Position numbers and translations under genes: made by a program
Part shown: positions 10,940 through 64,000 of the stretch, piece by piece
How positions within the stretch are numbered: position 1 is the first letter of the stretch
How the letters are laid out: each line of letters starts with the position of its first letter
Source of the DNA: Melieria omissa
Lineage: Eukaryota > Arthropoda > Insecta > Diptera > Ulidiidae
Assembly (NCBI GenBank): GCA_963971225.1
Contig: CAXARI010000001.1
Location: 316,001-380,000 of the forward strand
Reading direction: 5' to 3'
DNA: 64,000 nt
The notes under the pieces: generated by a model
What the model saw: the letters and a program-made list of their open reading frames with translations, nothing else
Database searches by the model: none
Told to the model about the DNA's origin: nothing

Positions 10940-11505
<566 letters not shown>

Positions 11506-13157: not shown

Positions 13158-16054
<2,897 letters not shown>

Positions 16055-16065
16055 GCCCCCCCTTC
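16055..16065 (-). promoter_or_regulatory. Polypurine tract of errantivirus B
   Basis: In element orientation GAAGGGGGGGC directly precedes the 3' LTR and lies within the env reading frame (EGGA). Confidence 0.8.
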
Positions 16066-19841: not shown

Positions 19842-21584
19842 ATTTGTTTTTAGCCTGGAAAGGGCGTCCGGGTTGGTGGTCGGTATAAATTCTAATTTTC
19901 TTTGCGCCGTACAAGTATGAGCGAAGGTTGTCGAGAGCCCATACTATAGCGAGCATCTCTTTCTCATTTGTCGCGTAGTTTTCTTCTGTCTTGTTCAAAG
20001 AGCGCGAGATGTACGCTATTGGCTTATCCTTTCGGGGTTCTCCCTGGGACAGCACGGCACCAATTGCGTAATTTGAGGCGTCAGTTGTCAGATTAAATGA
20101 TTTTTCGAAGTCTGGAAAAGCGAGTATTTCTGAAGAGGTTAAGAGTTCTTTTAAATTGTTGAACGCTTGCAAAGCCGTTGAATCTAAACTAATAGAAACT
20201 TTTCTCGATTGGTTAGCCTTTACTTGAGAATTTTCCCCACGGGTGAGATTTGTGAGTGGTTTTGCTACCTTGGCATAATCTCGAATAAACTTGCGGTAGT
20301 ACGACGTCATCCCTAGGAATCGTTTCAATTCTTTTAAGTTGCTTGGTGGCAACATTTGTTGGATTGCTGCAACTTTACCTGGGTCGGCCTTGATACCATC
20401 AGTCGTAATAATGTATCCTAAAAATTCAACCTCTTCCCTCATAAAGTGTGTTTTTTCCAAGTTTACCCTCAGGTTAGCTTCCAACAATGTTGCAAAGACG
20501 GTCTCTATGTTTTGTAGATGCTCGTCCACAGTTTTTCCAAAGACGATTATATCATCGATGTACACGTAGCAAATTTTCCCAATATGCTTCTTCAGTACAT
20601 CGTCAATCATTCTTTGGAAAATTGCGGGCGCATTCTTAAGACCGAATGGTAGGCGCAAGAATTCGTACTTGCCGTTCATCGTGGAGAACGCAGTTTTAGG
20701 GATGTCGGATTCTTTCATCAATATTTGATGAAAGCCTGATGTTAGATCGAGGGTGGTGAAATACTTTGCTGCTCCCAGGCTTACCAGAGTTGAGTTAATA
20801 TCAGGGATGGGGTACGTGTCAGCTATGGTTACCGCGTTCAGGCGTTTGAAATCGATCACCATTCGGTATTGCTTTTCCCCTGAAGGCTTAGGCTTTTTCG
20901 GAACTACCCATATCGGAGAATTGTATGGGCTTTTTGAAGGTCGAATAATGCCTTCAGTTAGGAGTTCATGAACCTGTTTTTCTACTTCCGATCTCATGCA
21001 CGCCGGGTATGGATAACTTTTGGTGTAAATGGGCTCGTCTGTACTAGTTTTTATCTCTGCCTTGACTGACGTTTCTACACTAACCCCTGCACTGAGTGGC
21101 TCAAATAGTTCCGAATATTTTTCCAAAAGTGATTCCAAAGATCTTACTTCCCCGTTTCTCACATTAGGCGTCTGCAACAGGTGCAAGCCTTTCGCGACCC
21201 TGTTCCTCAGATTCAGTGTAATTCCAGGCTGCAACGTTATTTTGTGGTTTTTTCGGTCTATCACCGCCCCTAGTTGCTTAAGCGTGTCGTCTCCGATTAT
21301 TCCGTCGAAAGATTTGAGCCCCGGAAGCACATAGAATGTAATTGGGGTCTCAATTCCTACACACTTGAAAAATTTCCCGGTAGTCTTTCTGTTGATGGGA
21401 ATCGGGCCAGCAACTGTTTGGACAGGGAAAGGAGAATTTACAGGCGAGGATTGTTTAGCCAACTTTGGGCTGACGAAGTTCTTATTGGCCCCCGTATCTA
21501 TCAGAAAATCCAAAGTTTCCCCGTTCTTGCACGATTTCGAGATGTAGGGTACACTCGAAATTCGTTCCCCCCGAGTTTGTCCGT
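19810..21584 (-). pseudogene. pol: Pol N-terminal part: protease, RT and truncated RNase H (element B)
   Basis: The -1 frame after gag, continuous through VPYI to the protease active site FLIDTGANKNFV and RT (VIDFKRLNAV, LDLTSGFHQI, YVYIDDIIVFG) into RNase H (LTTDASNYAIGA, NEKEMLAIVWAL, IYTDHQP). At about 19860 roughly 118 bp present in A (between DHQP and DALSR) are missing. The frame shifts and ends at 19810. Unlike A, protease and RT are in one frame here. Confidence 0.88.
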
Positions 21585-21798: not shown

Positions 21799-22046
21799 CA
21801 GTGCGAAAAGAACTTTCAGCGTAGACAGACGTACAAAGCAAACGCGTTGTCAGCTTACATTCGTTGATCTACAAGCCGGTTTTACAACAAACTCGCGCGA
21901 GACAATAAAGTGCATTACAACAAAGTAAACCGTTACATTCAGCAGTGAAAACTGAACTGAACTGAACAGCAGTGAAAGAAGCACAAAGCAAAATCACAAA
22001 GCAAAATCACAAACTAACATCAGACCACACTGCAGCTAGCAAAACC

Positions 22047-23264
22047 ATGCTAGACCCACCTGATATTTGGAGGAGAAATCCCCCTAACCCGGACGAACCA
22101 AAGTTCCTTACAATCACCAGAACTGACAATGAAAATCTCACAAGACTATCCCCCTTTATAATCAAAAAAACAATAGACTACACTTGCGGCGGAGAGGTAG
22201 AAATGTGCAAAAAAACACGCTCTGGCACACTACTAATAAAAACAAAAAACATAACTCAAGCAAATAAACTCTTAAAACTAACATCAATACATAACAACAT
22301 ACCAATTACCGTCGCACTTCATAAAACTCTCAACATTAGCAAATGCGTAATTTACTCCAACGACCTACGCGAAATAGACGAAACAACAATTCTCAATGAA
22401 TTAAAACCGCAAAACATAATCGAAATAAAAAAAATCCTAAAAAAACATGACAACATATTAACAGAAACCGGACTCTTAATAATCACCATCAACTCCCAAA
22501 CACTACCAGAATATATAAACATAGGATACGAAAAGGTAAAAGTTCGTCCCTACATCCCGCTGCCCATCAGATGCAACAACTGTCTTCGTTTTGGGCACAT
22601 CAACAAATCATGCAAGAACACAAAACTATGCAACAACTGTGGCCAGGCTTTCCATCTAAACATCGAAACAAATGAAATTTGCTATGCCAAAAAAACATGT
22701 GTCAACTGCACAGATAATCAACTGCCGTCAACCAATCACGCCTCAACTGACAAAGGATGCCCCATTTTTATAAAAGAACGCGAAATCCAAACTATTAAAA
22801 CCCTAGAAAAAGTAAGCAACAAAAAAGCCTACACAATATACAATAACCGACATCCAACCAACGACGCATTATACTCCACCGTTACTAAAAACGAATCCTC
22901 TTTCCACACAAATGTAAACAAAACAAACACCACTACAAACACAACTAATTCAACAAACGTCGTCCAATTAAAAAGAACGCAAACATCATATAATGACCTG
23001 GATCTAACCAGCAATTTAGAAAATCTCACATCCCAAGCGACAACAACCACTACACAACCATCAAAAATGCAGTCATCCCAACCCCTTCCGGACTCTAAAA
23101 TTAAAATTCTACCCAAAAACATCTCTAACAGGCTAAAATCAAAACTAAAAGCAAAAACAACTAATAGATCTAACAAAATAAGCACAAAACCTCAATTACC
23201 TTCAACTGAACCCTTGGACGTCGACGACACCTCGGATTCGATGTCCTTCGAACAATACCCATAA
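22047..23264 (+). CDS. ORF1p of I-clade element (nucleic-acid-binding, CCHC)
   Basis: 405 codons from the ATG at 22047 (MLDPPDIWRRNPPNPDEP). The frame is open further upstream, but only non-ATG codons exist there. The centre holds three zinc knuckles in the arrangement typical of I/Jockey ORF1: CNNCLRFGHINKSC, CNNCGQAFHLN..C and CVNC..H..C, followed by PIFIKEREIQTIK. The C-terminal third is Thr/Ser/Asn-rich and low complexity. The protein coats element RNA and helps form the retrotransposition particle. The coding strand is strongly A-rich. Confidence 0.9.
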   Translation: MLDPPDIWRRNPPNPDEPKFLTITRTDNENLTRLSPFIIKKTIDYTCGGEVEMCKKTRSGTLLIKTKNITQANKLLKLTSIHNNIPITVALHKTLNISKCVIYSNDLREIDETTILNELKPQNIIEIKKILKKHDNILTETGLLIITINSQTLPEYINIGYEKVKVRPYIPLPIRCNNCLRFGHINKSCKNTKLCNNCGQAFHLNIETNEICYAKKTCVNCTDNQLPSTNHASTDKGCPIFIKEREIQTIKTLEKVSNKKAYTIYNNRHPTNDALYSTVTKNESSFHTNVNKTNTTTNTTNSTNVVQLKRTQTSYNDLDLTSNLENLTSQATTTTTQPSKMQSSQPLPDSKIKILPKNISNRLKSKLKAKTTNRSNKISTKPQLPSTEPLDVDDTSDSMSFEQYP

Positions 23265-23325
23265 ATAGCTGTCAAATTAGTATATTCTGTATACTTCTTA
23301 GTGACAGCCATCCCAACATTTGCCG

Positions 23326-26300
23326 ATGAACCTCAAAATTCTCCAGTGGAATTTGAATGGCTTCAACAATAACCTACACGAACTACAAATTCTAATAAAA
23401 ACACACAGCCCTGACATCATAGCTCTACAAGAAACGCACCTCAACCACAATAACATAAATATCAACAACTATACTTCAACAACAAGCAATAGCCAAACAA
23501 CACGCGCAAAAGGTGGTACAGCCATCCTAGTTAAAAAAAATCTCAGCCACAAATTTCTTAGCCCACCAAACTCCCTTCAAGCAACCATAGCGGAAATAAA
23601 TATAAACATAACGATCACTGTTGTATCACTATACATCCCTCCGTCCGAGAACATTTCGCAATCAGAAATTACTGCATTATTAAACAGCATAAACACACGA
23701 ATTATATTGGTAGGGGATCTCAACGCGCATAGCACTTTATGGGGATCCAATAAAACAAACTCAAGAGGCAAAATAATAGAGTCGCTATCAACACATTCAA
23801 ACCTAATAGTTCTAAACACGGGAGCACCCACACACCTATCCACCCATTCAACTTTCACACATGTAGATATAGCACTCGCTTCATCAAATCTGGCACCCTT
23901 ACTAAACTGGAATGTAGCAAACGACATACATGGTAGCGATCACTATCCTATCATAATAACGTATGACAACAACACTCAGCTTACAACTAGAAAACATATC
24001 GCACGCTTTAAGACGACAGAAGCAAACTGGGCCAAATTCCAAAATTTACTGAACTCAAAAATAAGTAGCACTACAGTCTCAAACAACACCAACAAAGAAG
24101 CAGCCAAACTACACAAATGGATAATTGCCGCAGCAAATGAATCCATTCCACACACACATCCACAACCTACACTGAAAAAGAAAGTCTACTGGTGGAACAA
24201 CAATTTAGCACAACTACGATTAACTAAGCAAAATCTTTGGCACAAATTTAAAAACAACACCACAAGCGTAAATAGAATCGCATACAAAAAGGCTAACGCC
24301 ATTTTCAAAAAACACGCCAAAATAGCAAAGAGAGAGGCTTTCGCTGAATACACAAACACAATAAACCCTAACACACCAATCAAAACTATCTGGCACAACA
24401 TAAACAAACTATATGGAAAATACAATTCAACCGACATTAAAATGATAAAAAACAATCCAAACAACACTCTAACTGACCCAACTCAAATCGCCACATGCTT
24501 TGCAAAAAAATGGTCCACATACTCCAACGATGAAAACTTTGACAGAACTTTTTTAAATACAAAATACACAGAAAACACAACAAATGACATGAACTACTCA
24601 TTAAACAAATACGCAAGCAAAACGGAAATGAATATTAGTTTAACCGAGCTAAATGCTGCATTAACCACACTGAAAGGAGATACCCCCGGCCGCGACAAAA
24701 TAAATTATAGAATGCTTAAAAATCTTCCACACATAGCCAAACAAAGACTACTAAATATTTACAATACCATCTTTAACACTAGCATTATTCCACAGCAATG
24801 GAAAACAGCCACAATCATTCCTCTACAAAAACCACAAAAACAACCAGATTCATTAGACGGTTACCGACCAATTTCACTCCTCTCTTGTGTAAGCAAACTA
24901 ATGGAAAAAATTATCGCAAAACGACTAGTCTGGTTCATGCAAAGAAACAATTTACTAGCACAAAACCAAGTTGCATACAAAAACAATAAAAGCACACTTG
25001 ACGCACTCTTGTTTCTAGATCATATAACAACAAAAGCATTATCAACCCGCAACCATATGTCAATCATTTCAATTGATTTTGAGAAAGCGTTTGACCGAAT
25101 CGGCATACACACAATTCTGAACCAATTGATAGAGTGGAAGGTAGGAAAAAAGATAATATCCTATATAAAGTCTTTTCTGGTGAATAGGAAATTTCAAGTA
25201 CTGGTAAACGGTCATCTTTCCGAAATTTACTCCCTGCAAAACGGGATACCACAAGGCTCGCCTTTATCGGTAGTACTATTCCAAATTGCTTTTGAGAAGC
25301 TCAACAAAATCATTCTCCAACATAAACAATTTAGACACGGAATATATGCAGACGATTTGTATATCACAGCCAAATACAAATCAAACCAATCTCTACAAAA
25401 CGAATTTAATAAACTTAGTACGGACATCAACGAATGGTGCAAGTGGAATGGAGCAAAGATCTCGACAACAAAATGCAAAATTCTACACATCTGCAGGAAA
25501 AGGGAATGCAACCCCCCAATACTTCACCTCAATAACACAACAATAAATTACGTGGATAAACTAAAAATCCTAGGTCTCACTTTCAACAAAAGATACAACT
25601 GGACAGAACATATTGAATACTTAAAAAAAGAACTAACGAAGAGACTCAACTTAGTAAAATGCCTCACTAGCTTTCACAGCAATACACACATCAACACCTC
25701 CATAAACATTTTAAAAGCGATTCTAATATCCAAACTAGACTACGGTTTAGCTATATACGGACGTACAACCAAAAATAACATAAACAAACTAAAATCAATT
25801 TACCATGCTGCAGCAAGATACTGCTTAGGCGCATTTACATCTACACCAATAGCAAACGTCCTAACGGAGGCCGGCCTACCTACAATCGAACACAGAATAA
25901 AAGAAGCAACAGCTAAATTGTTTACCAAAATAATCAGCCCAACTGAAAAACCAAACTACTACAATTTCAAAAACATTCAAAAACAAACCAAACTAAAATT
26001 TCCATCCGCCATTCACAACAGCATAAACGTCGCAAAAAGCTTTGGACTCACTCACCACCAAAAGATAAATTATGTACCAAAAAACCCACCATGGACTTTC
26101 TCCAAGAAATGTATAATAGACCAACTAACTTGTTTAAAGAAAGACAGCATCAACTGTACAATATATATCAAATCATTTTTAGAAGTAAAAAATTCATACA
26201 AGGACTGGAAATTCCACTACACGGACGGATCAAAAACAAATTCTGGCGTCAGTTACGCAATAATTAACAACAATTACCAAATTGAACGCCTTGCACAGCT

Positions 26301-27012
26301 AGACGACAACTGCTCGATCTTTACAGCGGAATCAGAGGCAATATTATATGCCTTAAAAATCTTTCAACCACGTAATGGCAAACACATCATCTGCACCGAT
26401 TCATTATCGGCAATTCGAGCAACTCTCAACACAATTCACCAAAACAACACAATAATGGAAATTCGAGATATCCTCACACAACATCAACACAAATTAAAAC
26501 TAATGTGGGTTCCCAGTCACGTTGGCATCAAAGGCAACGAAATCGCAGACAATGCCGCAAAATTTGCACTACAAGCGCCAATACTCTTACAGCAGACATC
26601 GACCAAATCGGACCTAAATCGTCTTATAAAACAACACGTAACAAAAATACGAATGGAAGAATGGGAAAATTACCAACATTACTACAAAAAATACAACTTG
26701 GAAGCCAAACCGACATCATACCCTAGTGACTGCAAAAGAATATACATAAAAAAATGCACACGTTTAAGACTAGGACACACATTACTTACTCACCAACACC
26801 TAATGGAAAGAACAAGCGCACCTCTATGCAAACTGTGCAACACCCAGCAAATCTCAATTCAACACATCACAGAAGAATGTCATGTCATCAAACAAACACA
26901 AGAACAACTCAACCTACCCCCTTTATCAGCCCTTCTCAGTAATTTCACCAAAGAAAATGTATATAAAGTTATGAACATTTTAAGAGAATGTGGCATCCTT
27001 TACAACATCTAA
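23326..27012 (+). CDS. ORF2p of I-clade element: endonuclease, RT, RNase H
   Basis: 1,228 codons from the ATG at 23326. APE-type endonuclease (LQWNLNGFNNN, LQETHL, GDLNAHSTLWGS, GSDHYPI) occupies about residues 1-230. RT is in the middle (DGYRPISLLS, IDFEKAFDRI, NGIPQGSPLSVVLF, catalytic YADDLYIT). RNase H follows (HYTDGSK, AESEAILYAL, CTDSLSAI, WVPSHVGIKGNEIADNAA) with all acidic residues, and a C-terminal C-x2-C-x8-H-x4-C motif (CKLCNTQQISIQHITEEC). It nicks target DNA and reverse-transcribes its RNA there. No stop or shift is seen, so it is potentially active. A 61-bp gap separates it from ORF1. Confidence 0.93.
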   Translation: MNLKILQWNLNGFNNNLHELQILIKTHSPDIIALQETHLNHNNININNYTSTTSNSQTTRAKGGTAILVKKNLSHKFLSPPNSLQATIAEININITITVVSLYIPPSENISQSEITALLNSINTRIILVGDLNAHSTLWGSNKTNSRGKIIESLSTHSNLIVLNTGAPTHLSTHSTFTHVDIALASSNLAPLLNWNVANDIHGSDHYPIIITYDNNTQLTTRKHIARFKTTEANWAKFQNLLNSKISSTTVSNNTNKEAAKLHKWIIAAANESIPHTHPQPTLKKKVYWWNNNLAQLRLTKQNLWHKFKNNTTSVNRIAYKKANAIFKKHAKIAKREAFAEYTNTINPNTPIKTIWHNINKLYGKYNSTDIKMIKNNPNNTLTDPTQIATCFAKKWSTYSNDENFDRTFLNTKYTENTTNDMNYSLNKYASKTEMNISLTELNAALTTLKGDTPGRDKINYRMLKNLPHIAKQRLLNIYNTIFNTSIIPQQWKTATIIPLQKPQKQPDSLDGYRPISLLSCVSKLMEKIIAKRLVWFMQRNNLLAQNQVAYKNNKSTLDALLFLDHITTKALSTRNHMSIISIDFEKAFDRIGIHTILNQLIEWKVGKKIISYIKSFLVNRKFQVLVNGHLSEIYSLQNGIPQGSPLSVVLFQIAFEKLNKIILQHKQFRHGIYADDLYITAKYKSNQSLQNEFNKLSTDINEWCKWNGAKISTTKCKILHICRKRECNPPILHLNNTTINYVDKLKILGLTFNKRYNWTEHIEYLKKELTKRLNLVKCLTSFHSNTHINTSINILKAILISKLDYGLAIYGRTTKNNINKLKSIYHAAARYCLGAFTSTPIANVLTEAGLPTIEHRIKEATAKLFTKIISPTEKPNYYNFKNIQKQTKLKFPSAIHNSINVAKSFGLTHHQKINYVPKNPPWTFSKKCIIDQLTCLKKDSINCTIYIKSFLEVKNSYKDWKFHYTDGSKTNSGVSYAIINNNYQIERLAQLDDNCSIFTAESEAILYALKIFQPRNGKHIICTDSLSAIRATLNTIHQNNTIMEIRDILTQHQHKLKLMWVPSHVGIKGNEIADNAAKFALQAPILLQQTSTKSDLNRLIKQHVTKIRMEEWENYQHYYKKYNLEAKPTSYPSDCKRIYIKKCTRLRLGHTLLTHQHLMERTSAPLCKLCNTQQISIQHITEECHVIKQTQEQLNLPPLSALLSNFTKENVYKVMNILRECGILYNI

Positions 27013-27093
27013 TATTCAAATAATCGGCCGAAAGCCTTAGATGCTAGTGCCTTAGTTTTAAGTTTGTTTTATAATTTATTTATTAAATAAACT

Positions 27094-27120
27094 GTAAATA
27101 ATAATAATAATAATAATAAT
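27094..27120 (+). repeat. TAA-repeat 3' tail of the I-clade element
   Basis: About eight to nine TAA/AAT units end the element, just after an AATAAA near 27085. It has the same motif as the long arrays elsewhere in the window. Confidence 0.92.
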
Positions 27121-27132
27121 CGATTCATATAA
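27121..27132. repeat. Target-site duplication of I-clade element, right copy
   Basis: CGATTCATATAA directly after the TAA tail, identical to 21787-21798. Confidence 0.95.
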
Positions 27133-28217
27133 TTTACCCGCTTGGACTGGATCGACCTGTCCACATCCATTTTTTCTTGTGGCTTAGGGCCCGTCGGTCT
27201 GGGAGGTGGAGTAGACTCCATGCTTCCATTTCCCGTGTATCTATTATTTTCAAAGATTGGAGGCATGTTGCGGTAGTTTAATTTTCCCCCATAATCGCTG
27301 GGAAACTTATATTGTCTTCGGGGCAGTGGCGGTACCTGATCTGATCCGAAATTTCTGTTCAGAGGAACCGTGACCCTGTTTGTGCTTGCGGTATGAATAA
27401 TGTTGTTTCGTATTGTTAAATTCTGCATATCCAAGCATGCAGAGTACGCTTCCGGCAAGGTCTTCGGTTTCTGTACTATAAGCATGCGTGACAAGTCGCT
27501 GTTCAACCCCCTTATGAAAACGTCCAGAGCTCGGTTCCGGTATGTCTCTATTAGTGCGTTCATTGTCTCTTCGGAGTATGTCTCGCTTTTTATTTTATTA
27601 ATAATCAATGAAAATTGATAGTTTACGGTCGCATAGAACTCGTCCAGCCTACCTCCTCTTTGCGAGAGTTGGTTTAGCTGGTGTTCCAACGTCCGTATGT
27701 CCCTTTTGTCGGCGTTATGAAGAGACAATACCCGTTTTATTTCCTGCCAGTCCGCGTCGAACACGTTGTACGACACCAGCGCTGTGTCGGCACTACCCCT
27801 CACTTTTTGGCGGATATGTTGGAGGATTGCCCGGTAGATGGGCTTTCCCCGTACGATTTCATAGTCCTTTAGAATATTTTCCACGCTGTGCACCCACGAC
27901 ACATAGCATACAGGGTTTCCGTCAAAAGTTTGAAGTTCCTTCACACAGTCAGGGAGTCGAGCGATCTCTTTGAGTTCCTGTTCATTTTGAGGTCCGCATA
28001 AGGTGGTCAGCTCCGCGCCAGGTTGTGGTTGTGATTCTCCTCGCTCAATCTGGAGAAGTCTCCCCTCAATTCCTTGAAGCGTTGCTCCTAATAAGCCCCT
28101 GTTATCTAGCCTATCTTGTTCGACCCTGGATAGTCGTCCCTCTATACCCCTTAGCTGTTCTAACATCCGGTTGACCGCTCCGGTCAATTCGGTCAAAGAG
28201 GTTCTCATCTCGTCCAT
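27121..28217 (-). pseudogene. gag: Gag of errantivirus B, 5' part before the I insertion
   Basis: Starts at the ATG 28217 (MDEMRTSLTELTGAVNRM). It has a coiled-coil N-terminus with IEGRL repeats, then the conserved Gag core shared with A (FDGNPVCYVSWVHSVE, YRNRALDVFIRGL, MLIVQKPKTLPEAYSACLDMQNL). It is cut at the right copy of the target duplication (27121-27132). Beyond that, the frame runs into retrotransposon tail and stops. Apart from the insertion the gag frame is uninterrupted. Confidence 0.9.
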
Positions 28218-51703: not shown

Positions 51704-52914
<1,211 letters not shown>

Positions 52915-52925
52915 CTTCCCCCTTC
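52915..52925 (-). promoter_or_regulatory. Polypurine tract of errantivirus C
   Basis: GAAGGGGGAAG in element orientation, the same as A, next to the LTR. Confidence 0.83.
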
Positions 52926-54410
52926 AAAAATCTGCGTCCCGCAGATCGTGTGAGGCTGAATGGAGCCATGTTCTAGGGTGGTAGGCTTGTGCACTTCGGG
53001 GATTCTGGCGCGAATTGTCACCTTTCTCCATATGATGTAGCAAATGGCTGCTAGGGCAAGGATCAGGATGGCATCTATGGTCGTCGAGGTATGGAGGGTT
53101 CGGCCAAGCTTGCGGAGGCGGCTTATGTTTGCCAGCCCTAACTCGTGGATATATTTCATATTCAGTTTCAAACCTATCTCTGTAACGTTTGTTAGAACGG
53201 GTGGTACTGCTTGCAGCGTCCTAGTCGTTTTGCTGGAGAACGTTTGGTTTCCAATCCACACTGTCTCGTTATTCAGTTGCACAAGGAAGGTCCCGTTTAG
53301 TTTTCGTAGCTGGTTGTCGCTTCGAATGATCCCTTCGAAGTTGGAAAGGAATATCGTATCGTAGTCAACTAGCTCCACGGTCACTTGGTTGTCTGGTTCG
53401 AAACGGCACTTCGCATTGCCGCCTTTCAGCAGTCTTGGTATGCATTCGTTTTCAGGCAACTTTACCAGGGAACTCGCCTCACAAATCGTGGAGTTGTTCG
53501 ATGAGTAGCAATCGCCGGTGAGACCATAGGTTTCGTCGTTGCTCATCAGCATTTTTTTGTACTGCAGATCTACTCGTTTCCCCTTCGCCGTTGAGGCTCT
53601 GACCAACATTAGACTATAACGGGTTTTCTTCACTTTCGGTACGGCGAGCACGTAGAGGAGCAGAGTTCCGTTCGAGTAGATAGAGGGTTTCGCGTACTGA
53701 AGCGCCTCTACTAGATTTCGGTAAGGTAGTCCGTCTTCTTCACAGATTACTCGATCTATTTCTGCTTGATCTAAGAGGTTGGTGTTGACAATACCTGCCT
53801 TGGCCATTTGTGAAGCCCTGATGATTTCGGATATCTGTTCTTTGAGCACCAGGACCTTGTGCGACATTAACGTGTCGGATCTTTCTGAGTTAATGTCCTT
53901 GCCGATAGTGTTTATGTGGGCCATGACATCATTGACCTTCCTGATTGCCTCCTCTGTTACGTTGAAGATTTTTTTGTTGATCAGGTATTGGTTGTTGTTG
54001 TTTGATACCATCTCATTTTGCTTTTGGAGGATTTCATCCCAGTCAGTAGCGTCTGGTGAGCCTGCGACCCACTTCCATGCCGCTCCGATCCAGGTTATGG
54101 AGCGTTTCATCCTGTTGCCGTCACTCAGTAATTCATTAAGGCGTAGCCTCGTCTGCTTGAGGTAGTAATCGACCAGAGATTTCGATAAATCGTCCCTCAT
54201 GGTTGACTTGGCTATTTCGAGCTTCCTTAAAGCTGCATCGAAGAAGCCGATGTCAAGAGCATGCACCAGCTTGAAGTGCCCATTCACTATCCATCCGTCG
54301 CTGTGTTGGATGACCACCAGAGGGGAGTCGTACTTAAAGATGTTAAGTGCAATTGTCCCGGAGATTATTACTACCGTGATGATGAAGTGGAATGTCGATC
54401 TAAGGTGCAT

Positions 54411-54600
54411 TTTTACCTATTTTTTATGTCTTAAATTTTCTTGTGTATATGTGTGCCTGTAATTATATTTATTCATACAATTTAAAGGGTGCCGTATGTT
54501 TTACATATACATATTTTTTGTGCCATTTTTCTTAAAAGTTTTTGTAATTCTCTATTCTTTTTTATTTGTTTTGTTTTATTTTTGTTGAAAAAAAATTTTT

Positions 54601-54639
<39 letters not shown>

Positions 54640-55101
54640 CCGCTTCCCCATATTCTATATATACATATCTTAAATCTACCAGTTTTATACTATTTTATTT
54701 TTCCTTTATCTTTGAAGCCATTAAGACATGAAGCCTTTGTGTGCCACATATTTTTTATATTTTTTACAAAAAAAAATGTTTTTATTATTATTGTTTTTTT
54801 TTTTTTTTTTTTTTTTATTTCCTATTCCCATCACCATTCTATTTAAATTTCCTGTATATATTCCGCATTGGTTTTTCTTTTTTTATTTATTGCTTTTTTT
54901 TCATAAAACCTTATTCATAAAATCTTATTTATGCTCTTCTTTGCTGTTCATAATTTCCTCTTTAAAAATTCTTCTGAATCCTTATTGTCTAGTGTTCTTG
55001 ATGTGGCTTTTACGTGCAGTTGTGTTTTATTTTGTGTGCTGGTGCGAATATGTGCTGGTGTAAGTGCTTATGTGATTGAATTTATCGCATTTTATGTTAT
55101 T
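54411..55101 (-). other. Composite pol-env spacer of errantivirus C
   Basis: 54411 to about 55010 is A-type: spacer plus the last codons of A-type integrase (complement of AAAAGCCACATCAAG). From about 55010 to 55101 it is B-type spacer. The switch lies near 55008-55012 (...GCACGTAAAAGCC...). The B-type part lacks the 163 bp found in element B between two TTTTATGTTAT copies. Confidence 0.8.
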
Positions 55102-55267
55102 TTATTTTTTTGGAGTGCAACTCTTGATATGGGCCTTGTGAATTCTTCTTCCACTTTCCGTCGTTACTGTCACCCTATTGTCTTTAGATACTATCTCTTT
55201 ACGGTACAATGGTTTGTTTTTCCCTTTTATTGTCTTGATTGCTACGAAAATTTCCTCGCCCTTCCTA
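55102..55267 (-). pseudogene. pol: 3' end of B-type integrase gene (element C)
   Basis: About 55 codons matching the C-terminal basic domain of integrase B (KGEEIFVAIKTIKGK region to the stop at 55104-55102). It is not in frame with the upstream captured ORF. The junction at 55267/55268 is inside the codons for the TYRKGEE segment of B. Confidence 0.85.
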
Positions 55268-56536
55268 ATTGCAACTGAATTCTAAACTTATTTTGTTGGT
55301 TTCGATATGGTATTTAATATAAACGGCGTCCCCTCCTGTTAATTGCAGCAGTTGCCAAAGGCGTTCCGCTGAACTCAATTTATTTTCGAAGTTCTTCTTC
55401 TCCACTCCCGTTGAGTAGAGTTGATGGAGCGCTTCGTAGCGTTCGATCTGCCTTTCTATGGCCCTCGTATTTAATTTTTTAACCGGACGTTTGCCAAATG
55501 TCTTATCGGGGCCTTGAACAGGCAACCGAGACCTCGAACCAGGTCGATGACAACGTGCCGTTTCACGTTCGGGATCGGAACGAAAACTTCTGTTATTGGC
55601 TTTTAGGGAACCGTCTACTATGGGTTTGCGAGTTGTATCACCAACCGGTGCATAGTTTCCACTAGGAGTTGGGTAAGATGACATTGCAAACGATGTTTCT
55701 GGATAGCACTGATTGAAATTGTACATTTTCGGAGTCGGCTGCTGATAACGTAACTCTGGGACAGGGTGATGTTGTCGGCTGAACTGTTGAGGATCATGAA
55801 TTTTGTTACAAGAAGCAAAGCCTGAATGACAGGGGTGGACAGTCTCATTCAACGATTTCTGGGGAACAAGGTTATGCCTTGTTGCGACTAGCTGATCAAC
55901 GTCTCTTGAATTTATTATATGTGTAAAAGTAGGGCCATATAGTTCAGAGGCATGACGAAATGAGAATATTTTTGAAAGAATTTCGTAACGATTGATATTA
56001 AAATCACGCTCCATGCATTCATACGGCAAATCTCGGCCATGATGTTTCTCTATAGCCACAGCCAATTTTTTCAAAATTTGTAACATAACTCTCTGAGAAT
56101 CCTCTTCAGGAATTTTTCCGATATATTGTCGGCATTGCCGTATGGCAGTCGGAAAGTGGTTTTCGCAAAATTTCAGACGGTGATTGTAGCCCATCAAGTG
56201 ATCTTGCATACCAGACCCATCCGACATAAGTTCGCATAACCCACACTCAAACCTCGCATTTAAGTCACCAGAGCCTTTAAGTATTTTGATTACATACTCA
56301 ACGCCTATCAGTCCCAATATTTTGTCATCACTTCGCTTATAACTAAATGTTTTTGTTGCAAACGTTGGTTGGACTATTTTGCGCATCCGGGAATGGGAGG
56401 AGCGGTTTTTATTTTTGGTAACCGTCGCTACACTTACAGTATTTGCTTGAAAGCGCGATTTCTCTGTGGTGTCTAATAACTCATATTTAGGTAGCATATC
56501 TCTGCAGGGGGTATGCTCTGTGCCGTGAATTAGCAT
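55265..56536 (-). CDS. Zinc-finger ORF of apparent host origin carried by errantivirus C
   Basis: 423 codons from the ATG at 56536, no introns, unrelated to any Gag, Pol or Env part. A U1/matrin-type finger is visible: C98-x2-C101-x11-H113-x5-H119, preceded by GLIGVEYVIKIL and followed by HFPTAIRQCRQYIG, a spacing seen in RNA-binding C2H2 proteins. Helical region about 147-205; Pro/Ser/Gln-rich disordered stretch about 225-345; basic segment RPVKKLNTRAIERQIERYEAL near 350-370 with helical C-terminus. The frame is open 20 codons upstream to a TGA, so the natural N-terminus may be missing. The TAG stop lies at the junction with viral integrase sequence. I do not recognise the parent gene; a fast-evolving host RNA-binding or germline protein is a guess. 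Confidence 0.8.
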   Translation of the reverse strand: MLIHGTEHTPCRDMLPKYELLDTTEKSRFQANTVSVATVTKNKNRSSHSRMRKIVQPTFATKTFSYKRSDDKILGLIGVEYVIKILKGSGDLNARFECGLCELMSDGSGMQDHLMGYNHRLKFCENHFPTAIRQCRQYIGKIPEEDSQRVMLQILKKLAVAIEKHHGRDLPYECMERDFNINRYEILSKIFSFRHASELYGPTFTHIINSRDVDQLVATRHNLVPQKSLNETVHPCHSGFASCNKIHDPQQFSRQHHPVPELRYQQPTPKMYNFNQCYPETSFAMSSYPTPSGNYAPVGDTTRKPIVDGSLKANNRSFRSDPERETARCHRPGSRSRLPVQGPDKTFGKRPVKKLNTRAIERQIERYEALHQLYSTGVEKKNFENKLSSAERLWQLLQLTGGDAVYIKYHIETNKISLEFSCN

Positions 56537-56607
56537 TAATTCTTCTGGGATCGCCCCAAGGCTTTTTGCCCTTTTATTTGAACTAAGTTTTTTTCATGGC
56601 TTTATTT

Positions 56608-56716
56608 TTGTTCGACCCTAGGTAGTCGTCCCTCTATATCTGGTTCAATTGGTCAATTCTGGTCAATTCGGTCGGCTGGAAGAAAAATTCACTCACCCGT
56701 TATTTTCCTGTGACTC
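56608..56716 (-). pseudogene. gag: Gag start remnant of B type (element C)
   Basis: Matches the first ~30 codons of gag B plus the adjoining leader (complement of TTCGACCCT(A/G)G, GTCGTCCCTCTATA, GGTCAATTCGGTC). The block with the gag ATG is deleted. The splice donor survives as GG|GTGAGT near 56690-56700. The captured segment joins at about 56607/56608. Confidence 0.78.
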
Positions 56717-56730
56717 TAGTCCTTGTGTTG
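56717..56730. repeat. Target-site duplication of LOA-like element, left copy
   Basis: TAGTCCTTGTGTTG (a preceding C also matches), repeated at 62275-62288. Confidence 0.93.
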
Positions 56731-57371
56731 GGGATCAGGGTTTGGATCCACAAGGCAAAGCACCTGACTGCACGGATGTAGACGTGGTCCACATCTTCGG
56801 CTGCGATCCTTGTGGGTACCAGGCCAAGTGGACTCAACGCCTTCACGAAGGTTGCTTCTGGTGACCGGGCGGTCCCCGGGCGGCTGTTGAAGCTTGTCTT
56901 CTCAGCTGGCGAAGTTTGAGCTGCGGAAATCCAGGAGCGTCTGACCCACAGTGGGCGGCTCCCTGGTCAGCGTCTGATCTCCATGTTAGGAGCGGCTGTT
57001 TCTTATCATCTTTTGGTGGCGTGATAGATGTCAAAGAAACGCCACAGGGGAAGGCGACCCCCTTCATCAAAACCATTCTGGAGGGCTCCCATAAGGACTC
57101 TTTTACGGTGCAGGGAGTCGGATCCCCAGTACCGGCGGTAGACAGTGGGCGAGCGGGCTGTCTGGCGTCGTCATCCAACGACCGCTTAGGCTGTGCAGCG
57201 GGACCCCAGGCTGTGCAGTCTACAAATGCTACTGGGAAGCAGGAGGCGCCCAAACCTGCATTAAGCAGGCAAAAGGCGCAGGAGTCCACAGCACAGGATG
57301 GTCCCTCACTTTCGGGGGTGGTGCCTCAGCTCCGGGGCCTTCGACTCGACGCTGCTATAGAGGGGGAATCT

Positions 57372-58571
57372 ATGATTCTCTCGCAAAGTAGCGGCGCCGG
57401 GTCGGTGGACTCTGAGGCGGAGGCGGCACTCCTGGAGGAGGGAGACCGACCTGCGGCCACTGGCTCCATTCCTGGTATCTTACCGGCGGGGGAACGCAAG
57501 GCGAGCAGTGCTGCGAAGAAAGCCAGAAATGGCTACCGGCGCTCTCTTGCGTTTCTCCGCAGAGTGAGCAAAGAGCCTGGATCCTTGTCCGATAAGGAGA
57601 AGGATCTGGTAAGGAAGCACCAGAAGATCGTGGCTAGATTCGAAAAGAAACAGGCGGCGATTTCTGGTGCAAAATGCACGGCCGTTGCAGCAACGCCTGG
57701 TGACAGTGCCACGGCTGCATGGCCCACCGAAGGTGCAGTGGAGGCGGAAAAGCCTAGAAACAAGGCCACATCCTCCGTCACTGCACGGATGGGAGTAAAG
57801 ACGGGGACGGCAAAGCCTGGAAACAGTGCTGCGGTCGCCCCGTCAAATGAGACTGGTCAGAGACCCACCACCTCTTCAAGGCCCACTTCCACCACGGTGG
57901 AAAAGGCCGTAAAAAGGGGAAGATCGGGTGACGATCAGCCGACAGGGGAGGGGAAAAAGCTGAAGCCCTCAGCTAGCTTCTCTTCCCCACAGGAGTTGCA
58001 GATAGCCGTGGTGGACCGGAGCGATCCTGATGGGAAAATTCGCCCGGAAAACTGGCTTTCTGTAGAGGCGCGCATTCTGCGAGCGATGCTCGAGGCGGCT
58101 GACGGCGAAATTGACTTCGACGGCGCTGGCTGGCAGAAGGGTGTCAAAATCGTCGGTTGTGGCAACAAGGAGTCCCTCAACTTCTTGGTGCGCACTATCG
58201 GCGGTCTTGAGCCCCTCTGGCAGGGGGCGAAACTCGAGGTCATACCCCGTGACCGTCTGCCACTCCGGCCTATCGTCACACTGTGGGTCCCCCCTCCAGT
58301 TATGGAGGACGCCGACACGGTGAAGCTGATTGGCCGGCAGAATAGTGGCCTGAACACAGGAGAGTGGAGAATTGTATCCTCCACTACTTGTAAAAATGAG
58401 GCGGGCAAGGACATCGTGATCGCGGTAGATCAATCGTCCTTTGCCCATCTGCGGGACTCCCTGGGAGTTGTTAAGTTCGGTTTGGGTTCCCTCAAAGCTC
58501 GCTTCCCTAACAAGGAGCGCGCCACACAAGGGAAGGCTGAAGGTAGTGCAGATAAACCTGCACCACTCTAA
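57372..58571 (+). CDS. ORF1p of LOA-like element
   Basis: Frame open from about 56916 but without ATG before 57372, which gives 399 codons (MILSQSSGAGSVDSEAEAALL). The first half is Ala/Lys/Thr-rich and probably disordered, with a basic helical segment (KKARNGYRRSLAFLRRVSKE). The C-terminal ~170 residues form a conserved-looking domain (LQIAVVDRSDPDGKIRPENW, WQKGVKIVGCGNKESLNFL) resembling the DUF4780-type domain of insect retroelement proteins (from memory, unverified). No CCHC knuckle was seen in ORF1. Probably an RNA-binding particle protein. The end overlaps ORF2 by 131 nt or more. Confidence 0.8.
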   Translation: MILSQSSGAGSVDSEAEAALLEEGDRPAATGSIPGILPAGERKASSAAKKARNGYRRSLAFLRRVSKEPGSLSDKEKDLVRKHQKIVARFEKKQAAISGAKCTAVAATPGDSATAAWPTEGAVEAEKPRNKATSSVTARMGVKTGTAKPGNSAAVAPSNETGQRPTTSSRPTSTTVEKAVKRGRSGDDQPTGEGKKLKPSASFSSPQELQIAVVDRSDPDGKIRPENWLSVEARILRAMLEAADGEIDFDGAGWQKGVKIVGCGNKESLNFLVRTIGGLEPLWQGAKLEVIPRDRLPLRPIVTLWVPPPVMEDADTVKLIGRQNSGLNTGEWRIVSSTTCKNEAGKDIVIAVDQSSFAHLRDSLGVVKFGLGSLKARFPNKERATQGKAEGSADKPAPL

Positions 58572-61500
58572 AGCCGCCACCCACGACCTTATGCAGTTCC
58601 TTGAGGAGACTGGAGTTGACTTGGCTCTAATTCAGGAACCCTGGATCGTAGGAAACAGGGTTTGTGGGTTAGATTCAGGTCAATTTAGATTGCTTCATTC
58701 ACGCGGTGAAGGTAAGATACGAGCCTGTATTGTATACAGAAGGTGCATTAATTTGTTTCTTTTGTCTCATTACAGTACTGGTGACCTGTGTGTGGCTGCA
58801 TGCGAACGACGCGATGGGCGAGACCTGATCCTGTCGTCCGCATACATGCCATTCGAAGGGGAGGAACCACCGCCGAAGGAAGTCCGGGACCTTGCTGCGC
58901 ACGCCCGATCACGGAGGCTCGACCTTATCATCGGGTGTGATGCCAATGCACACCACATGCTGTGGGGAAGTTCCGACACCAACAGTAGGGGTGAGTCAAT
59001 TTTTGAGTTTCTTCTAGGCTCTAACCTTGTGCTGTGCAATAGAGGCAATACGCCGACTTTCCACAATAGGGTTAGGGAGGAAGTCATAGATATTACCTTA
59101 GTTACCGACTCCAACACTATCTCCGTGGTCGACTGGAAAGTACTGACGGAATGTTCGTTCTCGGACCACAACCGTATAGTCTTTTCAGTGGCCATAGAGG
59201 TTGGATGTCCACAAACTTATAGGAATCCGAGAAAGACTAACTGGCCCAAATTCAGTGCACTAGTTTCTCAGAAACTGGCATCGCGCAAAGCGATCGCTAC
59301 ATTCGAGAGAAACAACATTGACAGGTCAGTTGGTCTTCTAACGAAAGTGCTTAACAAGTCTTTTAATGAATCTTGTCCTAAAAGTCGAGCTCCACGGAAA
59401 ACCAACGCGGTGTGGTGGACCCCAGAGCTAAGACAACTTAGAACAGATACCAGACGTCTCTTCAATAAGGCTAAACTTAGCCGAACTGAAGAAGACTGGG
59501 GAGCCTACAAGGCTAGCTTTAATAAGTTTAAGAAGACTATTAGGGCGGCCAAGCGGGATAATTGGAGGAAGTACTGTGAATCCCTCGACAATGTCAACGA
59601 GGCCGCCAGACTTCGCAAGGTGCTAGCCGGGGCATCACATACCCCTAGCAGCATTAGGAAGTCTGACGGCTCGTGGACAGAATCGAGGGAGGAGCTTCTA
59701 GAGACTCTCATGAACACCCACTTTCCCGGTTGCACGAGTGTTGTTGAGACGACCACGCCTCATAGACAGCACTCGTCACGACCGGATGCTTTTGTTCGGG
59801 GGATTATCGATGAGGTCAAAGTGGCATGGGCGATAGACACCTTCAACCCGTACAAATCTCCGGGTCCCGATGGTGTCATTCCGGCTATGCTGCAATGGTC
59901 TAAGGAGGCAGTGGTCAAAGTCTTGGTGCGAATCTTTCGGGAATCTCTCCAACAGGGCTATGTACCGCGCGCCTGGAAAGAGGTTAAGATGGTGTTCATC
60001 CCCAAGGCGGGGAAGTCAAACCACATCACTGCAAAAGACTACAGACCGATCAGCCTGTCATCGTTCTTTCTTAAGACCTTGGAGAGGCTGGTGGATGTCT
60101 ATGTCAGGGGAGTGGCACAGTCCAGGGGACTCTGCAGGACGCAACATGCGTATTGCAGGGGAAAATCTGTAGACAGCGCCTTACATGAGGTCGTTCAGAC
60201 GATCGAAAAATCGCTGAGCGTCAAGGAGTATACGTTAGCCGCTTTCCTCGATATTGAGGGGGCCTTTAATAACGTCACTCTAGAGGCAATAATCAGTGCA
60301 CTTAGAAAATTCGAAGTGGACGAGAAAGTGGTAAGGTGGACCAGCGATATGCTTAGTAGCAGAAGGGTTCACTCCAGCCTAGGCTCGTGCTCGGTGAGGA
60401 GGTTAACCACAAGGGGCACACCTCAGGGGGGCGTCCTTTCGCCTCTGCTGTGGCTGCTTGTGATAAACAACATCCTCGAGATCTTCGAATCCAGGAGGCT
60501 GCGAGTAGTAGCATATGCGGACGACGTCACTATCCTGATCCCTGGAAAATTTCTTTCCACCATCAGTGATCTCATGGAGTCTGCTTTAGGAGAACTCTCT
60601 AGGTGGGCAGAGCATAACGGTCTAGGAGTTAACCCCTCAAAGACGGTTATGGTACTGTTCACCCGGAGATACAAGATACCGGAGTTTAGGCTGCCGAAAC
60701 TCAGCGGCATCACTATCACCCTCTCACCCGAGGTGAAATACCTTGGCACCACACTCGACTCCAAGCTTTCTTGGAGACGCAACGTGGAAGAGCGGGTGAA
60801 GAAGAGCCTGAATGCCTTCTACGTCTGTCAGAAGGCCTTCGGGAAAAAGTGGGGATTGCGGCCGGGCATTGTCCACTGGATGTATACAGCGATCATTCGG
60901 CCGATCTTATGTTACGGAGCCATTGTCTGGTGGCCGGCCACGGACACCAGGTCCTTGGCGACGCAACTGATGAAGGTGCAGAGACTGGCGGCTATGGGAA
61001 TAGCAGGAACCGTCAAAAGCACCCCCCAGGCAGGCCTAGAGATGATTCTACATCTCCACCCAATAGAGCAGTTCATTAAGTGCTGTGCTGCTAAAGGCGC
61101 TCTCAGGCTGAGAGAGGCCAACTTGTGGAAAGAGCACGCTTATGGACACTCTGGGATCCTAAGGTCATTTACGAGGCCAGGTACGGAACATCAATTAGAT
61201 TCCTGCACGGACTATCTGATTCCATACCTGGATTTTGATTCGCGCGCACTTACCTCCTTTCCCTCAAGGGAAGAATGGGGACTTACAAGTGTGATAAGAG
61301 ACGCCTCCATCACCATATTCACAGATGGTTCTAAGATGGAGGAAGGTACAGGAGCTGGTCTCCACTCAGATGCACTAGGGGCTCAACGGTCTTTCAGACT
61401 CCCGGACCTCTGTAGCATCTTTCAGGCGGAGATTTATGCAATCTGGAAAGCTGCTGAATTAATCCGCGACAGCGGATTATCACCCACGGATATCACAATC

Positions 61501-62154
61501 TGTGTGGATAGTCAGGCAGCCCTTAAAGCGCTGGAATCAGCGACTGTGAAATCAAAGGTAGTGCAGAGTTGTCGCAGTGCACTTCGCGGCATCGGACATC
61601 ACCGAGTCACTCTCTGCTGGGTTCCGGGCCACTCTGGAGTGGCAGGAAACGAGGCAGCGGATGAGATGGCAAGAAAGGGGGTCGCCCTGCCTCTCACCGA
61701 AGTGGATAACTCTGTGCTCCTTCCGATATCTGCCCTGTATTTGCGTATTGACAGGTTGAGCAAAACTTACATCGAGTCCTCATGGCGGAGCAGAACTGAT
61801 TGCAGTACCTGCCGGGCAATATGGCCTTCCCTTTCCGTGAGGAAAACGCGATATGTACTGTCCCTGAGTCGAACCTCTATTAGGCAGCTTGTTGGAGTCA
61901 TCACTGGACACTGCGCCATTGGATCTATGCTGGTCAAATGGTGCCTCTCGTCCAGTGATGTCTGCAGAAGCTGTGGAGATGAGGAAGAAGTGGAAACGAT
62001 CCAACACTACCTGTGCCACTGCCCGGCTCTGCAGGAACGCCGACTCCGTACCTTGGGGTCAAGGTTCCTGGTAGACTTGGCCTGCGCAGCAGTAGTTGAA
62101 ATATCGGATCTACTCTCCTTCATCAAGAGGTCGAACTGGTTTGCCCCGAGCTGA
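58441..62154 (+). CDS. ORF2p of LOA-like element: endonuclease, RT, RNase H
   Basis: About 1,237 codons in the +1 frame relative to ORF1. The endonuclease begins (VVQINLHHSKAATHDL) before the first useful ATG, so translation probably comes by frameshifting or termination-reinitiation from ORF1. Endonuclease motifs IQEPWI, GCDANAHHMLWGS, SDHNRIV; RT KDYRPISLSS, LDIEGAFNNV, RGTPQGGVLSPLL, catalytic AYADDVTIL; RNase H FTDGSKMEEG, FQAEIYAIWKA, CVDSQAALKAL, WVPGHSGVAGNEAADEMA; C-terminal CRSCGDEEEVETIQHYLCHC zinc motif. No stops or shifts, so it is potentially active. Confidence 0.92.
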   Translation: MPICGTPWELLSSVWVPSKLASLTRSAPHKGRLKVVQINLHHSKAATHDLMQFLEETGVDLALIQEPWIVGNRVCGLDSGQFRLLHSRGEGKIRACIVYRRCINLFLLSHYSTGDLCVAACERRDGRDLILSSAYMPFEGEEPPPKEVRDLAAHARSRRLDLIIGCDANAHHMLWGSSDTNSRGESIFEFLLGSNLVLCNRGNTPTFHNRVREEVIDITLVTDSNTISVVDWKVLTECSFSDHNRIVFSVAIEVGCPQTYRNPRKTNWPKFSALVSQKLASRKAIATFERNNIDRSVGLLTKVLNKSFNESCPKSRAPRKTNAVWWTPELRQLRTDTRRLFNKAKLSRTEEDWGAYKASFNKFKKTIRAAKRDNWRKYCESLDNVNEAARLRKVLAGASHTPSSIRKSDGSWTESREELLETLMNTHFPGCTSVVETTTPHRQHSSRPDAFVRGIIDEVKVAWAIDTFNPYKSPGPDGVIPAMLQWSKEAVVKVLVRIFRESLQQGYVPRAWKEVKMVFIPKAGKSNHITAKDYRPISLSSFFLKTLERLVDVYVRGVAQSRGLCRTQHAYCRGKSVDSALHEVVQTIEKSLSVKEYTLAAFLDIEGAFNNVTLEAIISALRKFEVDEKVVRWTSDMLSSRRVHSSLGSCSVRRLTTRGTPQGGVLSPLLWLLVINNILEIFESRRLRVVAYADDVTILIPGKFLSTISDLMESALGELSRWAEHNGLGVNPSKTVMVLFTRRYKIPEFRLPKLSGITITLSPEVKYLGTTLDSKLSWRRNVEERVKKSLNAFYVCQKAFGKKWGLRPGIVHWMYTAIIRPILCYGAIVWWPATDTRSLATQLMKVQRLAAMGIAGTVKSTPQAGLEMILHLHPIEQFIKCCAAKGALRLREANLWKEHAYGHSGILRSFTRPGTEHQLDSCTDYLIPYLDFDSRALTSFPSREEWGLTSVIRDASITIFTDGSKMEEGTGAGLHSDALGAQRSFRLPDLCSIFQAEIYAIWKAAELIRDSGLSPTDITICVDSQAALKALESATVKSKVVQSCRSALRGIGHHRVTLCWVPGHSGVAGNEAADEMARKGVALPLTEVDNSVLLPISALYLRIDRLSKTYIESSWRSRTDCSTCRAIWPSLSVRKTRYVLSLSRTSIRQLVGVITGHCAIGSMLVKWCLSSSDVCRSCGDEEEVETIQHYLCHCPALQERRLRTLGSRFLVDLACAAVVEISDLLSFIKRSNWFAPS

Positions 62155-62253
62155 GAGCCACTGGTTAGCTCCGGAATCTTCCATGAAGGGATTCACAATG
62201 GGCCATTTTGGCCTACGAGTGGAAGTGCTGCCCTTGGGACGCACACACCCTTC

Positions 62254-62274
62254 CCTACCTAACCTAACCTAACC
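62254..62274 (+). repeat. (CCTAA)n-like 3' terminus of the LOA-like element
   Basis: CCTA then three CCTAA units and a final CC before the target duplication. The unit equals the complement of the common insect telomere repeat TTAGG, but here it is the tail of a retroelement. Confidence 0.85.
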
Positions 62275-62390
62275 TAGTCCTTGTGTTGCCTCCGTATATA
62301 TCCTTTTACTAGCACTTGGCACTCACTTCGCACTTACTTTGCACGCACTGCACCCTTTTCAATGATTAGTATTTTTTTATTTCTATTTTT
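62275..62390 (-). other. B-type inner leader in errantivirus C
   Basis: Starts with the right target duplication (62275-62288) and matches the leader of B (28271-28385) with one clear substitution (CACCCTTTT for CACACTTTT). At about 62389 it changes to A-type leader. Confidence 0.83.
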
Positions 62391-63620
62391 TTCCTTCCTT
62401 TCAGAACCTTTCGGGTGGCACTTTCACACTTCTTATTTTCTTCCTTCTTTTTTTTTACAATTTAAAAAACAAAAAATTTTTACAATTTTAGAATTTTTTT
62501 ACCATTTATCTTTTTACTTATATTTATCTCCTTTTTTTATTTTTCTTTGGACTACCAAGGAATTCTTATGAATTCTTATGATTTCTCTTTTTCACCAAGG
62601 AAAAATTGTTTGACACTTCTTATTATTTATATATTAGCAACTTTTTTCCTTATTTTCTGGCACTTTTCCTATCAATTTTTTGTTTTCTGGCACTTTTAAA
62701 TCATTAACACAATTTTGTTTTTTGTTTGTTTTATTTTCCACAATCCACAATCCTCTGGCACCTTTTGTTCGATGCTTATTCTCCGTTTATCTGGAAGTAA
62801 GGAAGCGGTTTTTATTTATATGTACCGTGATCTTACGTTAACGGCGGCTCGCGCTCAACGGCGTCTGCCTTTAAACTTCGTTTCACCGTGTTCTGAAGGG
62901 AACGGCTTTTGACAATTTTAGTCGCGGAAGGGTCACTTTATCCGTTTTAGTCGTCCGCAATCTGATTGCGGGCAACCTACTAAGGAGCGACTGGCTTCAC
63001 ACCGACTACGGGCCAGCCTGGGAAGTCCGTGTTATCCTTTTTAGTCGACCGCGTTTATAATTGCAGCCGACCTACTAAGGCACGGTGTCTTCCACCTATC
63101 CGCTCATCACCGTTCGGCGCTCGACTTGTCCAGAGGATATACTCCGACTTTTAAGCGAACGCGCAAGGTGTGAGGTGGGATAAGGCCGATCCTTTACAAT
63201 TCGTTGGCGTTAGGAACTCAGGACTTTTTCTTCACAGTGTTATGTTACCGAAAGATCCACGCATTTGGATCGCCGGTTTTGATAAATTTATATTTGGGGA
63301 TATGCCGAGTGTACGGGAGTATTCCCTGGAGTTGGCGAATCGTCGTACACTTTTTATTTTTTACTGCACAGGAGGGTCCCCCCGAAGGTGGTGAATCGCT
63401 GGCAGTTCCCAAATAATTTTTATGAAAGGCTGAGGGGCTTCGGGGTCGCAGCACTTTTGTTATTTGTTATATCCTGGAGGGTCCCGTAGGAATCGCAGGA
63501 TGAAGACGTATTTCTTTATCTTGTTTTCTTTTACGTTTTCCTATTTTAAACTTACTGTTATTTTTCGAAGCGGTTGCTTCGCCCTGAGTCCTTCACGCGT
63601 CGACCCGCATTTTTGCGCGG
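62391..63620 (-). other. A-type outer leader of errantivirus C
   Basis: Reverse complement of element A leader (3137 to about 4370), including both stem-containing modules (around 62930-63080). Lacks a 9-bp CACCTTTCG unit next to the B junction. ORFs here are the same non-coding ones as in A. Confidence 0.85.
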
Positions 63621-63638
63621 GTCCCTGCTCGGGCGCCA
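63621..63638 (-). promoter_or_regulatory. Primer-binding site of errantivirus C
   Basis: The same 18-mer as in A and B, complementary to a lysine-tRNA-type 3' end. Confidence 0.88.
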
Positions 63639-64000
63639 GTTAAGGAGCTCGCCCCGCGAGCTCCAAAAAAGTTAGAGATGGGGCCAACCACTGGCCCTTG
63701 GCTCTGCTGCAAAGAGAATTGGATTAATTAAAACACCAAAGTTTACCTTCCTCGTCCGAGGTCCGATCAAAAGTGACAAGAACTTTATTCTTTATTCTTA
63801 ATGAAGCTTACTATCTACTCTGCTTAACTAAGGCACGTGTGCTATGTCAGCATTTCAGCCTGCAGGCAACGCATATGCGACGGGCAGCGATCCCACGGTT
63901 TTTGGAGGAGGATCGCGTTACCGAGCCATTCAGTGCAACGTTATGCGTTGTTGGGTCGCCGATCACGTTGATATGCAACGTGCTGGAATTGGCGTGGAAG
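63638..64000 (-). repeat. 5' LTR of errantivirus C, cut by window end
   Basis: 363 of an expected 407 bp are visible. All are identical to 52508-52870 in a base-by-base comparison by eye. Confidence 0.95.

Follow-up and report, generated by a model that had tools for sequence, protein, structure and literature searches.

A non-autonomous errantivirus of the fly Melieria omissa that very probably carries a captured fragment of the host gene CG7065

Our analysis indicates that an element in a 64,000-nucleotide stretch of Melieria omissa DNA (the window) is, in all likelihood, a non-autonomous errantivirus carrying a fragment of a host gene. The fragment appears to have been captured once and lies on several backbones; its capture would have been by template switching, and mobilisation of the element in trans. 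Capture in the manner of transducing retroviruses is well supported. The parent gene, a relative of CG7065, is present in the same genome.

An ORF of 423 codons (55265–56536, minus strand, in the ORF listing of the window) runs in the sense of the element that holds it and contains a U1-type finger, C98-x2-C101-x11-H113-x5-H119. The frame, its finger and its orientation are as the earlier note on this DNA described them, and the length is not due to chance, since none of 1000 dinucleotide shuffles of 55268–56607 reached 423 codons and the longest frame obtained had 189. Third codon positions are richer in T in the ORF (0.31) than in the genes of errantiviruses A and B (0.15–0.25), as is expected for cellular sequence. 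No family was assigned to the ORF by Pfam or PHROGs, and a PDB sequence search returned a single chance match (E 1.4). AlphaFold modelled the ORF poorly (mean pLDDT 54), with confidence confined to about 90–165, and Foldseek found nothing for this model at E 0.001 or better. A pattern search of viral contigs matched two stretches, neither of which codes for a relative of the ORF. The features of the element are as follows.

63638–64000, minus strand: 5′ LTR, cut by the window end
62274–63637, minus strand: leader, A type down to 62397 and B type at 62274–62391
56731–62273, plus strand: nested LINE with a 14-bp target-site duplication
56608–56730, minus strand: B-type gag start remnant with a splice-donor-like sequence, gag ATG deleted
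56473–56607, minus strand: stretch 5′ of the host part, comprising the first 21 ORF codons and the bases before the ATG
55265–56536, minus strand: fusion ORF of 423 codons, matched by at least 98 viral-type loci in the genome
55511–56472, minus strand: host-derived segment with the U1-type finger, corresponding to bases 3531–4492 of the host locus L031
55265–55510, minus strand: C-terminal module, homologous to the pre-gag small ORF of errantivirus family D
55105–55266, minus strand: integrase C-terminal remnant, B type, corresponding to B pol residues 444–497 (100%)
55008–55104, minus strand: B-type spacer lacking about 143 bp, its end close to the TAAAA switch to A type
52884–54410, minus strand: env, A type, 508 codons
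52508–52907, minus strand: 3′ LTR, its inner end approximate and set from the 400-bp LTR of element A

Within the window, the two LTRs agree at 363 of 363 bp, and next to the 5′ LTR, at about 63621–63638, lies a sequence that resembles a primer-binding site and that we take to act as one. The env gene matches Pfam Gypsy PF07253 (E 2.7e-50). The ORF lies between a gag-start and an integrase-end remnant, as had been claimed, and alignment assigns both to the B type. These remnants are all that is left of the element's own gag and pol, and the element is therefore a defective derivative of errantiviruses rather than an autonomous one. We infer that it would depend on a helper; the dispersal of its copies fits helper-dependent spread, as do the frames for gag and pol that element A has in the window. 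The layout proposed from the sequence (LTR, leader, foreign ORF, env, LTR) was borne out for env, the LTRs and the remnants, with the exception that a 5.5-kb LINE is nested between the leader and the gag remnant. This LINE, which has a DUF4780 ORF1, an open ORF2 for endonuclease, RT and RNase H, and CCTAA-like repeats at its end, was inserted later and does not belong to the capture.

When the element was compared by BLASTN with the remainder of the window, and its junctions were aligned, it proved to combine A-type and B-type errantivirus DNA in a mosaic. The window contains errantivirus A on the plus strand (gag 4428–5633, pol 6015–8864, env 9444–10970) and errantivirus B on the minus strand (env 16024–17523, pol 18348–21513, gag 27069–28217); a LINE of another kind (21972–27012, plus strand) lies between gag and pol of the latter. 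In the BLASTN comparison, the LTR and leader at 62397–64000 are of A type (98%), as are env and the LTR at 52348–55012 (96%). B-type DNA occupies 62274–62391, 56658–56730, the integrase end at 55081–55267 (98%) and the spacer at 55008–55100 (98%), and the ORF region has no BLASTN match in the rest of the window. At the junctions, 56608–56730 corresponds to the gag start of errantivirus B, from which about 31 nt, the gag ATG among them, are missing, the B-type integrase DNA starts at the ORF stop codon (55267 and below), and the change from B to A sits at a short shared TAAAA. Short shared bases were observed at viral switch points only. The stretch at 56473–56607 has no match in the window or in the host gene; it weakly resembles a Gag N-terminus, which may be chance. 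The accessible part of PMC12992720 describes recombination among variants of one Drosophila lineage (rover) and argues from env trees against env exchange between errantivirus lineages in Drosophila, a finding that counts against our reading and from which the A/B mosaic of the present element differs.

The protein database gave 26 different relatives of the ORF; the 15 named ones were all from flies and included CG7065 of tephritids and Drosophila. The earlier note had named matches to viral proteins only as a refutation, and this was not the case. In the genome (490 Mb, 164 contigs), a single one of the 99 listed loci lies in a long cellular frame (C1:46829529–46830503). This frame (L031, C1:46,826,000–46,835,000) is a CG7065 relative of 1301 codons, or 1295 from the first ATG, and aligns with its relatives over almost the full length, so that the coding part is one exon here. 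The ORF shares an ungapped stretch of 962 bp with L031 (bases 3531–4492), at 88% DNA and 76% protein identity. The host-derived part of the ORF comprises codons 22–342, equivalent to about codons 403–723 of the host gene from its first ATG. When eight viral types were placed in a protein tree together with the 26 relatives, they formed one clade (100/98), sister to the CG7065 of their own genome (98/98), with branches of 0.07 for the host and 0.16 for the viral stem. The ungapped match and the sister position support the capture of a cellular gene. A spliced host gene had been named as the proof of it; a host gene of high identity was indeed found, but its coding region is one open frame, and intron loss at capture therefore cannot be seen.

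The ORF keeps 30 of the 31 columns that are invariant in the other 26 CG7065 relatives (residues 57–225). The captured fragment retains the second finger region of CG7065, while neither the first finger (so judged by eye; Pfam zf-met at E 0.2 only) nor the conserved C-terminal part is present. We tested whether the C-terminus of the ORF continues CG7065 and dropped this view; nothing in the host gene matches the last ~80 codons. Over residues 66–232, eight amino-acid differences separate the host from all 69 viral copies compared, four of them in the finger loop (residues 104, 105, 108 and 112; ORF 104–112 corresponds to 56201–56227). The copy at L046, which has a stop inside, was left out of this count and of the DNA tree.

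We found at least 98 viral-type loci, including the window copy, among the 99 of 185 candidates that were scored; the 100 rows obtained from these also contain the host locus and a second row for one of the viral loci. Typed by identity and extent, with context added for fetched copies, the listed loci comprise 38 of type T1/T3, 8 T4, 7 T5, 12 T6, 31 T7, 1 T8 and 1 T9; 70 of the 98 were fetched, and the other 28 were called viral by identity and extent alone. A stop lies inside the matched row at five of the listed viral-type loci, and one more in the second short row of T9. Among the 70 fetched copies, 68 have no stop in the matched stretch and 69 an intact finger. The 5′ host end is at 3531–3534 in 68 of them, and the 3′ host end at 4492 in 53, at 4150 in 12 and at 4342 in 4. 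The T9 copy (L051), though interrupted, likewise ends at host 4492, and the beginning of the small-ORF module is still present in it. These common ends are explained by one capture. A single recent, private capture was rejected, as copies occur across the genome. The earlier note had suggested a search for other copies with the same junctions, and the junctions do recur in other copies, which makes an assembly error unlikely.

Matches to gag, integrase or env flank or adjoin all 70 fetched copies; no reverse transcriptase was found in them within about 1.5 kb on each side. Some of the listed copies are dispersed over four chromosome-scale contigs. On two contigs (C5:245–573 kb and C16:237–285 kb), many copies stand in one-strand rows, spaced in places at about 5.5–7.2 kb, as if elements were in tandem and shared LTRs, and these may be amplified DNA rather than separate insertions. 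The presence of many copies in rows would also be expected if the ORF copies were a dispersed host gene family or satellite, with viral neighbours that are coincidental or due to assembly error. We regard this as extremely improbable, since all 70 fetched copies have viral sequence beside them, the junctions recur on many contigs, and only one of the 99 listed loci lies in a long cellular frame.

The viral surroundings of the captured fragment vary. T1 and T4 combine a B integrase tail with A env, while T3 has a longer spacer, a B integrase tail and B env; L029 has the T1 junction, but B env. T5 carries a third env, mostly 44–47% identical to A and B. The ORF of T6 stops early in another integrase tail; T8 has a longer B integrase, with stops inside. 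T7 leads in one frame from 29 Gag residues through the host codons into an integrase-like tail (by eye), and some T7 copies have no env within 1.5 kb. T9 opens with a different Gag start, followed by host codons from which an internal part is deleted, a distant integrase (43%) and a distant env (27–30%). In BLASTN of representatives, T1 aligns with T5, T7 and T9 only in the cassette (91–95%), and pairs among T5, T7 and T9 match in the cassette at 89–94%. T4 and T5 have about 100 bp upstream in common (87%), and pieces of 25–41 bp outside the cassette are common to T7 and T3, T4 and T5. The cassette is present on at least four backbones, and because it aligns while the flanks barely do, it appears to have moved between them; recombination among co-packaged RNAs would be the simplest route.

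In the last ~80 codons, the ORF is homologous to a viral pre-gag small ORF, to which the host fragment is fused in frame. The protein database gave no match for them among 11 candidates of fitting length. In the genome, the module matches 73 places, and both places fetched (L072 and L073, 97% and 83% DNA identity) are without the host part. L073 contains an 84-residue ORF of the module kind whose stop lies two bases before the Gag ATG (MANPNN...) of family D, and T9 begins with a D-like Gag start and retains the host-to-module junction (by eye). In one detail the ORF differs from the earlier description: codons 22–342 are of host origin, but the C-terminus is viral. The other possibility named in the earlier note, an accessory gene of an undescribed viral lineage, is partly right in view of the C-terminal module and of the presence of the fusion on several backbones. 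At L072:93–728, the module is fused to a truncated Gag, without the host part, in a second non-autonomous design.

The module is under strong purifying selection, with dN/dS of 0.05–0.18 in 14 of 15 pairs (the remaining pair has one change) and, where dS exceeds 0.2 (eight pairs), of 0.05–0.15, p being as low as 2e-9. Between T1 and T5, dS is 0.24 in the module and 0.07–0.09 in the host part, a further sign of mosaic history. The accessible part of PMC11952523 describes sORF1 and sORF2 upstream of gag, with low dN/dS, in the MDG1 group of Drosophila. The module resembles them in position and in low dN/dS, but differs in that it stands by the gag of an errantivirus-like family, in env-bearing elements, and is fused to a host protein. 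In the 84-residue ORF of L073 (beginning MKRPNK), inspection by eye revealed no myristoylation motif and no long hydrophobic stretch, unlike MDG1 sORF2 (FAST-like).

Selection on the host-derived part was analysed pairwise as dN/dS with uncorrected Fisher p, over residues 66–232 unless stated. T9 against T1, T4, T5 and T7 gave dN/dS of 0.25–0.30 (p 4e-5 to 8e-5), four comparisons that share one lineage and are in effect one test. Between the host and the viral types, dN/dS was 0.42–0.51 (p 0.0014–0.02), which includes change in the host. Comparisons with T7 gave 0.36 for T1 (p 0.039), 0.44 for T5 (p 0.027) and 0.45 for T4 (p 0.062). The pairs T1–T4, T1–T5 and T4–T5 had dN/dS of 0.45–0.57, not significantly below 1, and of 0.60–0.68, likewise not significant, over residues 22–342 (p 0.15–0.28 for the whole range of 0.45–0.68). 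Constraint on the host part rests mainly on the T9 split, the deepest among the viral types, and the long viral stem (0.16, against 0.07 for the host) also fits relaxed constraint after capture.

These values bear on the question of whether the captured fragment is a mere passenger, in elements amplified for other reasons and with frames that are open owing to recent copying. The identical and hence young LTRs of the window copy, the values for T1, T4 and T5 and the length of the viral stem agree with this, but the comparison of T9 with the rest (p about 5e-5), the finger retained in 69 of 70 copies, the cassette common to at least four backbones and the in-frame fusions formed in more than one way do not. 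We consider a passenger role rather unlikely. The boldest reading, and one less likely than not, is that of a selected selfish cassette, fused to a pre-gag protein and recombined among at least four backbones, with which helper-dependent elements of insect retroviruses would manipulate a nuclear CG7065 pathway.

In the accessible part of PMC2891703, CG7065 is listed as of Unknown function in a Drosophila screen, among the genes whose dsRNA lowered the signal of a hypoxia (HIF) reporter. The likeliest role of the fragment, tentative and with odds well below even, would be to act as a nuclear interfering copy of CG7065, or to bring the viral small protein to CG7065 partners, and in this way to aid expression of the element. 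The lack of the first finger and of the conserved C-terminal part suits an interfering copy. The fragment might instead be kept for the benefit of the host, either as an interfering protein carried by the virus or as a source of piRNAs directed at errantiviruses. In other animals, viral products that are truncated can have a restrictive effect, and the same-strand rows on C5 and C16 could be heterochromatic arrays. This appears highly unlikely, given that copies are also dispersed over four chromosome-scale contigs, that the fragment occurs on several backbones and that the viral small-ORF module is selected as well.

Within the favored reading of one capture and several backbones, the host sequence would have been acquired when reverse transcription switched templates between co-packaged RNAs, and the element would be mobilised in trans by Gag and Pol of intact relatives. 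The fusion protein would be made from unspliced RNA and Env from spliced RNA, with splicing from the donor-like GGGTGAGT near 56690, which, by analogy with gypsy biology, we assume to be the splice donor. According to the accessible part of PMC12992720, the exons from which env is spliced lie upstream of gag or inside it.

In vertebrate retroviruses, host-gene transduction is a textbook phenomenon (v-src and similar). Acutely transforming (transducing) retroviruses are named in the accessible part of PMC13297096. Our element resembles them in the sense-oriented host coding segment between LTRs, the lost or replaced gag and pol, the Gag-host fusion of T7 and the expected helper dependence. It differs in being an insect errantivirus that keeps env, with no oncogenic role known, and in that one capture extends across several backbones and dozens of loci, with the host fragment joined to an accessory protein of viral origin. 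The nearest LTR-element precedents found, in the accessible parts of the sources, are Bs1 of maize (PMC13317346) and LTR-mediated retroposition (PMC5408686). Bs1, which is reported to contain segments of three genes, none with a full-length ORF, is likewise an LTR element in which fragments of host genes make up a chimeric ORF; our element has one fragment, open in most copies, as well as env, and its cassette lies on several backbones. In metazoans, LTR-mediated retroposition (Tan et al. 2016, as described in PMC5408686) involves template switching between LTR-element RNA and cellular mRNA at short similarities, of the kind we presume for our element; it is described as yielding retrocopies, whereas here the insert became a lasting part of multiplying elements. 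In the literature searched, a partial open library, we found no host-gene capture in insect errantiviruses. Here the parent gene, the junctions, the mosaic forms and selection are all readable in one genome, which makes it testable how often insect retroviruses capture genes and what the uncharacterised CG7065 means to them.

We also observed (AAT)n/(ATT)n runs directly beside LTR ends of A and C (about 11337–11505 and 52480–52507), and that at 33.7–52.6 kb units recur every 2.6–3.4 kb, each with about 0.4–1.2 kb of (AAT)n. The elements may prefer (AAT)n/(ATT)n arrays as targets.
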